From a virus, in IMG/VR virus record IMGVR_UViG_3300033145_002067, positions 1 through 24,700 of that record: a stretch of DNA of 24,700 nucleotides. One strand, written 5' to 3'. Below are positions 8,793 to 12,893 of this stretch, piece after piece. Each line of letters begins with the position of its first letter. Positions within the stretch are counted from its first letter, which is position 1. Under the pieces are notes generated by a model that was not told the origin of the DNA, ran no database searches, and saw nothing but the letters and a program-made list of their open reading frames with translations. A program made the position numbers and the translations under genes.

Positions 8793-8963
8793 ATGAGTAA
8801 GGGTCCCTGGAAAAAGAAAAGGGGGGACAAAGCCCCTCTTACACCACAGAAGGACAAGATGGTCAAGCGAGCTTATAGAAAGAGCATGTGTTCCTCATGC
8901 AACTATTGGTATCGTTTAGGTCTTGATAAGTGTCCTGACTGTGGCAGGGAAAAAGACAATTAG
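8793..8963 (+). CDS. Small zinc-ribbon protein, 56 aa
   Basis: ATG 8793 to TAG 8961-8963. A very basic leader (MSKGPWKKKRGDK) is followed by one zinc ribbon: CSSC (33-36), then CPDC (47-50) after a ten-residue loop. The function is unknown; such ribbons bind one zinc and commonly contact nucleic acid or protein. It begins 9 nt after the preceding gene with only a weak GGGAAG ribosome binding site. Its stop codon overlaps the first base of the structured non-coding stretch that follows. Confidence 0.7.
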   Translation: MSKGPWKKKRGDKAPLTPQKDKMVKRAYRKSMCSSCNYWYRLGLDKCPDCGREKDN

Positions 8964-9130
8964 CGGGGTGGCCGAACAGCAAGGCACTGCTGACGAGTAG
9001 GTCTGGAGGAATCGGAACGAAAAGGGACTCGAACTGCCCCTCAAGGGTTAGTCCGAAGGGGGGTATAGTAGAGCCGCCAGTCTGGGGTGACCGTATCCCA
9101 TGGCCAGGGTAGGCAAGTCCCCAGCCCCGC
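8963..9130 (+). ncRNA. Candidate structured RNA between two virion genes
   Basis: GC-rich stretch with no convincing coding frame and complementary segments that nest into a compact fold. Outer helix GCGGGG (8963-8968) with CCCCGC (9125-9130). Directly inside, TGGC (8969-8972) pairs with GCCA (9076-9079), and CTGGGG (9082-9087) with CCCCAG (9119-9124), making a three-way junction with almost no unpaired bases. The left arm could hold hairpins CAGCA/TGCTG (8977-8981, 8988-8992), CGAGT/ACTCG (8994-8998, 9027-9031) and CCCCT/AGGGG (9037-9041, 9057-9061). The right arm could hold a bulged helix at 9094-9099 with 9107-9111. I matched it to no RNA family I know. The pairing is by eye; chance helices are easier in GC-rich sequence. 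Confidence 0.45.
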
Positions 9131-9150
9131 TTCGTGGCGGAACCACCGCC
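9127..9150. other. Alternative hairpins ahead of the triple-repeat protein gene
   Basis: CCGC (9127-9130) can pair with GCGG (9137-9140) across TTCGTG, or GGCGG (9136-9140) can pair with CCGCC (9146-9150) across AACCA. The two exclude each other, and the first also competes with the outer helix of the RNA candidate at 8963-9130. The TTCGTGGCGG segment recurs in the hairpin before the capsid gene (7041-7050). Confidence 0.4.
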
Positions 9151-9177
9151 TTAAACGAAAAGTATGGAGGATAAATA

Positions 9178-9849
9178 ATGCCTGTAACAAAACTAAAATC
9201 AAAATGGAGTTCAGGTAATCTGGTATTCTATGGCGATGGGAACCTTCACTTTGGTGAAGACGATGACGGCATAGATGTCAAGTTCTTTGGTGCTACTTCT
9301 GGGGCATATATGCTCTGGGATGAAAGTGCCGACCAGGTAGTCTTTGACAAAGCCGACATTCTGCTAGGTGATAGTGATTACCTGAAATTAGGTGATTCCA
9401 GCGATATTACCATGACCTGGAACGGCACCAAGATGCTTATAGGGCAGGCTGGAACCAATAGCGCTATTGAAGTGGGCGTTGATGGTGCTGGGCTTGACCT
9501 AAAGCTTTTTGGTGACACTTCTGGTAAATACCTGCTATGGGACCAGAGTGCTGATAAGCTTGTCGTGGTAGGCGATTACGATATCACTGGCGCCAGCCAG
9601 TTTACTGGCGTAGTAACAGTTGGGGTTGATGACACTGGACATGATGTAAAGTTCTATGGTGCGACCAGCGGTAAATACATGCTGTGGGATGAATCGGCAG
9701 ATAAGCTGATTGTCGTCGGCACTGCTGACCTTGGAAGTTCATGTGAAGCCGATGCCTATACGGTAGGCGGCACGGCTGGTGTGGATTACAGTGGTGCTGG
9801 AGCCACTATTACCGAGATAATCAAGGGCATAGTAACAGCAGCGTCATAA
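9178..9849 (+). CDS. Triple-repeat virion surface protein (fibre or decoration type)
   Basis: 223 aa with three copies of a repeat of about 28 residues at 30-57, 103-131 and 153-181; each reads roughly G-x-D-V-K-F-F-G-A-T-S-G-K-Y-M-L-W-D-E-S-A-D-K-L-V-V. Shorter related strands (ILLGDSDYLKLGDSSDI) lie between them. Such repeats are beta-rich and occur in phage structural proteins, where they may form a trimeric fibre or an elongated surface protein. Position in the head module suggests a head-decoration or head-fibre role, but the host-recognition alternative cannot be excluded. TGGAGG precedes ATG 9178. The sequence of the last 40 residues differs from the repeats and may be the trimerisation or attachment end. 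Confidence 0.65.
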   Translation: MPVTKLKSKWSSGNLVFYGDGNLHFGEDDDGIDVKFFGATSGAYMLWDESADQVVFDKADILLGDSDYLKLGDSSDITMTWNGTKMLIGQAGTNSAIEVGVDGAGLDLKLFGDTSGKYLLWDQSADKLVVVGDYDITGASQFTGVVTVGVDDTGHDVKFYGATSGKYMLWDESADKLIVVGTADLGSSCEADAYTVGGTAGVDYSGAGATITEIIKGIVTAAS

Positions 9850-12817: not shown

Positions 12818-12893
12818 CGCAGGGTAGAGCAGTGGTAAGCTCGTCAGGTTCATGACCTGAAGGTCGTTGGTTCAAATCCAACCCCTGCTACCA
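12818..12893 (+). tRNA. tRNA-Met (CAU), initiator-like, CCA encoded
   Basis: Complete 76-nt cloverleaf. Acceptor 12818-12824 with 12883-12889; D stem GAGC/GCTC; anticodon stem TCAGG/CCTGA with loop TTCATGA, anticodon CAT at 12851-12853; variable AGGTC; T stem GTTGG/CCAAC with loop TTCAAAT; discriminator A12890 and encoded CCA. Position 1 is C and 72 is U, an unpaired end. A mismatched 1:72 pair is the hallmark of bacterial initiator tRNAs, and A11:U24 agrees. The anticodon stem has only two of the three usual GC pairs (A29:U41). It is likely a phage-encoded initiator tRNA; an elongator or Ile2 identity is less likely. Being inside the operon, its maturation would cut the late mRNA here. Confidence 0.93.

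Follow-up and report, generated by a model that had tools for sequence, protein, structure and literature searches.

Results

The window, by which we mean the whole stretch of DNA analysed here, corresponds to a viral record 24,700 bases long, whose genes for terminase, portal, protease, major capsid protein (MCP) and connector occur in that order. A small open reading frame of 56 amino acids (8793-8963, + strand) is separated from a gene of 223 amino acids (9178-9849, + strand) by a gap that was confirmed as real. The small reading frame ends in a zinc-ribbon-like CxxC...CxxC segment and found no match in a search of PHROG and Pfam; its first half is similar to small reading frames present at the same site in two relatives, L002 and L003. 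These small frames are basic and share the pattern KKR..APL.P..DKM (8793-8963 in the window, about 4480-4597 in L002 and about 2270-2400 in L003). In L002 and L003 a strong hairpin additionally lies within the coding sequence of the frame, whereas the copy in the window terminates in the zinc ribbon.

The gene on the other side of the gap encodes a repetitive, all-beta surface protein whose N-terminus, MPVTKLKSKWSSGNLVF, is the signature of its family. Members of this family vary in length, and roughly their first 20 residues are conserved. The set of downstream proteins gave single weak matches to Phage_head_fibr of Pfam and to PHROG 14753 (E = 0.0027 and 0.0021), and single weak matches to tail-fibre families as well. 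AlphaFold returned an all-beta model of the downstream protein at a confidence (pLDDT 61) too low to base a fold search on. It is probably a head-fibre or tail-fibre-like virion-surface gene. The weak protein matches and the position beside the capsid genes recall the head fibre genes of the phi29 type, although most members of the set match nothing and the assignment is weak.

An earlier note on this DNA had placed a structured non-coding RNA at 8963-9130 (168 nt, + strand), with an outer helix enclosing two inner ones in a three-way junction. Its description of the stretch was accurate in several respects. The region is rich in GC and in purines (G 61, A 39, C 44, T 24) and, at 62.5% GC against 47.3% for the window, is the richest 168-mer of the window; the frames that are open across it lack a gene-like start or context, in agreement with the claim that it holds no plausible reading frame; and the named helices are literally present as 6+4+6 Watson-Crick pairs. 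The fold itself fared less well. The minimum free energy of 8963-9130, -69.0 kcal/mol, is not better than chance when compared with dinucleotide shuffles (z = -1.35, with 17 of 200 shuffles equally good), an outcome that the note itself had named as speaking against its fold, and its residual relative to GC-matched windows of the same contig is -0.75 sd. The outer helix (8963-8968 with 9125-9130) is predicted with an ensemble probability of 0.98-1.0, whereas the two inner helices are paired with probabilities of 0.001-0.007, and enforcing the earlier fold costs 4.2 kcal/mol. The + strand of the window can form three-way junctions with the 6+4+6 geometry at three sites, of which two fall within genes; shuffles of the whole window lead one to expect 1.9. 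Locally, such a junction is rare (5 of 2,000 shuffles of the surrounding 250 nt), and a weak residual signal therefore persists for 8963-9130.

No homologue of the 168 nt was found with blastn, nhmmer and exact patterns among 80 MCP loci, loci collected later, phage records and Rfam. The sole match to a degenerate three-way-junction pattern (L296) lies inside an unrelated predicted reading frame of 148 amino acids on a contig of 68% GC. The closest relatives, L002, L003, L085 and L249, all lack the element: the first two pass from the small reading frame straight into the pseudoknot motif described below, and the other two carry a simple hairpin at the site. Rfam gave no match at E up to 10 on the + strand of 8900-9200. 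A tRNA-like reading by eye revealed no consistent core and was negative with ARAGORN and Rfam; the same was true of a hammerhead-like reading ('CUGACGAG') and of others by eye, for which Rfam was likewise negative. The view that 8963-9130 is itself a functional structured RNA built on a three-way junction can draw on the GC maximum, the abundance of G and A, the nearly certain outer helix and the local rarity of the junction, but it must accommodate an ordinary folding energy, inner helices that form in less than 1% of the ensemble, comparable junctions expected by chance elsewhere in the window, the lack of any homologue in the searches above, and the absence of the element from the closest relatives, and we consider it unlikely. 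The stretch is a contig-specific, GC-rich segment at the site of the simple strong hairpin of the relatives, and we assign it no separate function; it is our guess that it stands in functionally for that upstream hairpin.

A weak blastn match between the window and its relatives spans only 9136-9168, directly 3' of this segment. At this position the relatives have GCGGAACCACCGC, then a second hairpin, then AUGGA immediately 5' of the gene start. Scanning IMG/VR for that pattern yielded 76 stretches, many of them 5' of genes whose products start with MPVTNVKSxWxxGNLxF. Because a collection based on the pattern risked circularity, loci were gathered by protein (MCP, the downstream protein and N-terminal alignments) and their leaders were then read. 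Some of these protein-anchored leaders are variants with an altered loop and a correspondingly altered 3' strand. A first hairpin (P1) with the loop A[AG]CNN is present in 51 of 56 distinct protein-anchored leaders of genes with this N-terminal signature, and all 51 hairpin-bearing leaders have downstream an A followed by the reverse complement of the loop CNN. Loops other than CCA number 13 (CCG five times, CUA three times, CGA and CGG twice each, CUG once), and every one is compensated (CCG/CGG, CUA/UAG, CGA/UCG, CGG/CCG, CUG/CAG). When tails were shuffled, on average 1.9 of the 13 were compensated and the full 13 were reached in 0 of 20,000 trials; nor was 13/13 ever reached when tails were shuffled among the 13 non-CCA leaders alone.

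The second hairpin (P2) could also be placed by a rule blind to the pseudoknot, and the complementary triplet then stood right behind P2 and an A in 38 of the 51. In a composite alignment of these 38 leaders, 8 of 10 pairs vary on both sides, the P1 and P2 hairpins covarying too, and the covariation score is 0.626 versus 0.157 for shuffled and at most 0.129 for slid alignments. Rows of this alignment were kept on a triplet match, with a P1 of at least 4 bp required, and since this choice demanded complementarity, the percentage of pseudoknot pairing in it is given by construction; the test with 20,000 tail shuffles is unaffected by the choice of rows. A covariance model from which both the pseudoknot and the sequence of the window had been left out locates the motif of the window at 9134-9169 (41.3 bits, E = 1.6e-10) and matches the protein-anchored loci directly 5' of the gene. 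Across 40 whole records it finds one strong match per positive record, and it detects no second copy of the motif in the window. A further search used only the loop AACUA and a distant GGAG, and 80 loci were kept among the matches listed; at least three of these listed matches carry the signature gene, and those three all have A-UAG and none A-UGG. L307, one of these three, had not been collected before, and its P2 measures 11 bp.

Three signature genes (L256, L283 and L243) are seemingly without the motif. The motif tracks the downstream gene and not the capsid: most relatives collected by MCP lack it. No match came from Streptomyces phage Dagobah or a Bradyrhizobium phage, the nearest relatives by MCP, and among cultured phages none with the signature gene was found. 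The only motif-bearing genome contig that we found (L234, 3.2 kb) is labelled as a Gemmatimonadetes MAG. An association with a gene rather than with a capsid type, most MCP relatives lacking both motif and gene, might be expected if the repeat GCGG-AACCA-CCGC were a DNA element, such as a protein site or a recombination hot spot, that holds a modular leader and its anchor together. P1, P2 and the pseudoknot all show compensation between distant positions, however, which calls for an RNA fold; a DNA element is strongly disfavoured, and we think it very improbable.

In the window, the conserved structure at 9136-9168 is an H-type pseudoknot composed of the P1 hairpin with a loop of the type AACNN, a linker, the P2 hairpin, and an A-N'N'G segment that pairs with the P1 loop. 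P1 (GGCGG-AACCA-CCGCC) pairs 9136-9140 with 9146-9150 around the loop 9141-9145, as supported by the covariance model and by covariation. P2 pairs AC at 9155-9156 with GU at 9162-9163 around the loop GAAAA; it has only 2 bp here and 3-11 bp in many relatives. The first strand of the pseudoknot helix, for which the support is covariation, is the CCA of the P1 loop (9143-9145), and the second, which corresponds to the segment complementary in all hairpin-bearing leaders, is UGG at 9165-9167, with an A on either side. This helix measures only 3 bp in the window. The Shine-Dalgarno sequence GGAGG (9166-9170) has its first two G residues in common with the second strand, and the start codon of the downstream gene follows at 9178. 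Minimum free energy folding of 9130-9180 favours instead a pairing of UUCGU with ACGAA (9131-9135 with 9155-9159), which is incompatible with P2 and may represent a second state that the leader of this contig can adopt.

Strong hairpins upstream of the motif are far more frequent than expected by chance: of 68 leaders, 35 have a stem of at least 10 bp in the 90 nt on the 5' side of the motif, compared with 49 of 680 random 90-mers. Intrinsic termination describes neither these hairpins nor the 168 nt segment: in 31 of 44 strong upstream hairpins the 8 nt that follow contain at most two T, and no U-run is found behind 9130 in the window. Strong hairpins that mostly lack a T-run could serve in the processing or stability of mRNA, the hairpin protecting or marking the upstream message and the pseudoknot capping the 5' end of the downstream one. 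Such an arrangement accounts for the hairpins better than for a pseudoknot beside a Shine-Dalgarno sequence, and we regard it as rather unlikely to be the explanation of the motif.

Discussion

The pseudoknot overlaps or abuts the ribosome-binding site of a single gene. In 48 of 69 leaders the Shine-Dalgarno sequence starts inside the motif, and a median of 10 nt separates the pseudoknot from the start codon. Given this overlap, translational control of the probable fibre gene is the best explanation of the motif, and we infer that the element acts in RNA, on translation. In the remaining 21 of 69 leaders the Shine-Dalgarno sequence lies beyond the motif, up to 14 nt downstream, and simple occlusion is therefore not the whole story. 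The short helices of the window copy (3 bp in the pseudoknot, 2 bp in P2), the competing pairing of UUCGU with ACGAA and the three signature genes seemingly without the motif also weigh against this reading. We favour the interpretation that the functional element is the RNA pseudoknot at 9136-9168, which would act in cis within the leader of a virion-surface, probably head-fibre-like gene and most likely fixes or adjusts how much fibre is translated in relation to the products of the capsid genes upstream. The last three bases of the P1 loop would pair with the N'N'G behind P2, and the third loop of the resulting H-type pseudoknot would itself contain a hairpin. Since its 3' strand shares bases with the Shine-Dalgarno sequence or borders on it, folding should limit the access of the 30S subunit to the start codon of the surface gene inside the late operon. 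A bound protein or ligand may mediate the effect.

If a protein is bound, it may be a virion protein. In an autogenous or cross-regulating operator of the kind known from T4 gene 32 and rpsO, a fibre or capsid protein would repress translation until assembly consumes it. An operator would suit a motif that is present once in each genome and is invariably followed by the same gene, whose N-terminus is conserved, and T4 gene 32 provides a precedent in phages (PMC535899). The conserved N-terminus is short, however, and without a known RNA-binding fold, and the sequences of the helices vary freely, so that any binding protein would need to read shape and a few invariant bases; an operator in this strict sense is conceivable and rather doubtful.

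A small-molecule riboswitch aptamer in a phage would likewise explain the overlap with the Shine-Dalgarno sequence. The size and topology of the motif resemble those of small riboswitch pseudoknots, and invariant unpaired A residues together with an invariant C-G pair would be in keeping with an aptamer. Nevertheless, the controlled gene is a virion gene and not one of metabolism or transport, the invariant unpaired bases are few, and the riboswitch models of Rfam found no match, all of which makes an aptamer improbable. The preQ1-II riboswitch is likewise an H-type pseudoknot whose third loop contains a hairpin, and autoregulation of rpsO (S15) relies on a pseudoknot at the ribosome-binding site to control translation. 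The rpsO element differs from the motif of the window in gene, size and sequence; the preQ1 riboswitches have other conserved bases, and the motif is not tied to queuosine genes and gave no Rfam match to them. The preQ1-I aptamer, at about 34 nt, is an example of how tiny a pseudoknot aptamer can be (PMC7266159).

The nearest functional precedent in phages for a translational pseudoknot of this kind is the leader of gene 32 of T4 and RB69, in which a short pseudoknot in the mRNA lies 5' of the start codon (PMC535899). The motif described here also lies upstream of a start codon. In T4 gene 32 an unstructured binding region of UUAAA repeats stands between the pseudoknot and the start, whereas in the present motif the 3' strand runs into the Shine-Dalgarno sequence or lies next to it and a covarying P2 hairpin occupies loop 3. 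Moreover, the downstream gene here is of a repetitive, beta-rich surface type and not a self-repressing ssDNA-binding protein.

A structured RNA, as announced by the earlier note, does exist in the gap between the two genes, but as a different object with different coordinates and a different fold; the interval 8963-9130 ends 5 nt before the conserved structure. When a candidate is selected from the predicted fold of one sequence, a genuine RNA a few bases away can go unnoticed. Of the roles proposed at the time, a cis-element on the message of the downstream surface protein is supported, and a separate non-coding or packaging-associated RNA is not supported.

In many uncultured phages the pseudoknot motif accompanies one family of surface genes, and Rfam does not contain it; six motif-bearing loci gave no Rfam match at E up to 5, and a literature search of partial coverage returned no description of it. 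To our knowledge, RNA motifs that are supported by covariation and tied to a virion structural gene are rare in phages. We tentatively suggest, as a bolder possibility, a new RNA family: a phage pseudoknot of 35-60 nt, widespread in uncultured tailed phages, that might act as a protein- or ligand-responsive switch setting the stoichiometry of fibre to capsid. The pseudoknot offers a way to test how phages adjust the number of capsid fibres to the amount of capsid protein.

Elsewhere in the window, Rfam 15 recognized only a tRNA and Hammerhead_II. The latter is a type II hammerhead ribozyme on the - strand at 642-702 of this phage contig, above the gathering score at 40.5 bits, and a tRNA-Met (CAT) gene lies on the + strand at 12818-12893, within the late gene region. 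Finally, a long imperfect hairpin at 1015-1133 (minimum free energy -48.3 for 990-1135) stands directly 5' of a reading frame resembling the terminase small subunit (1153-1563) and is possibly part of the packaging region.
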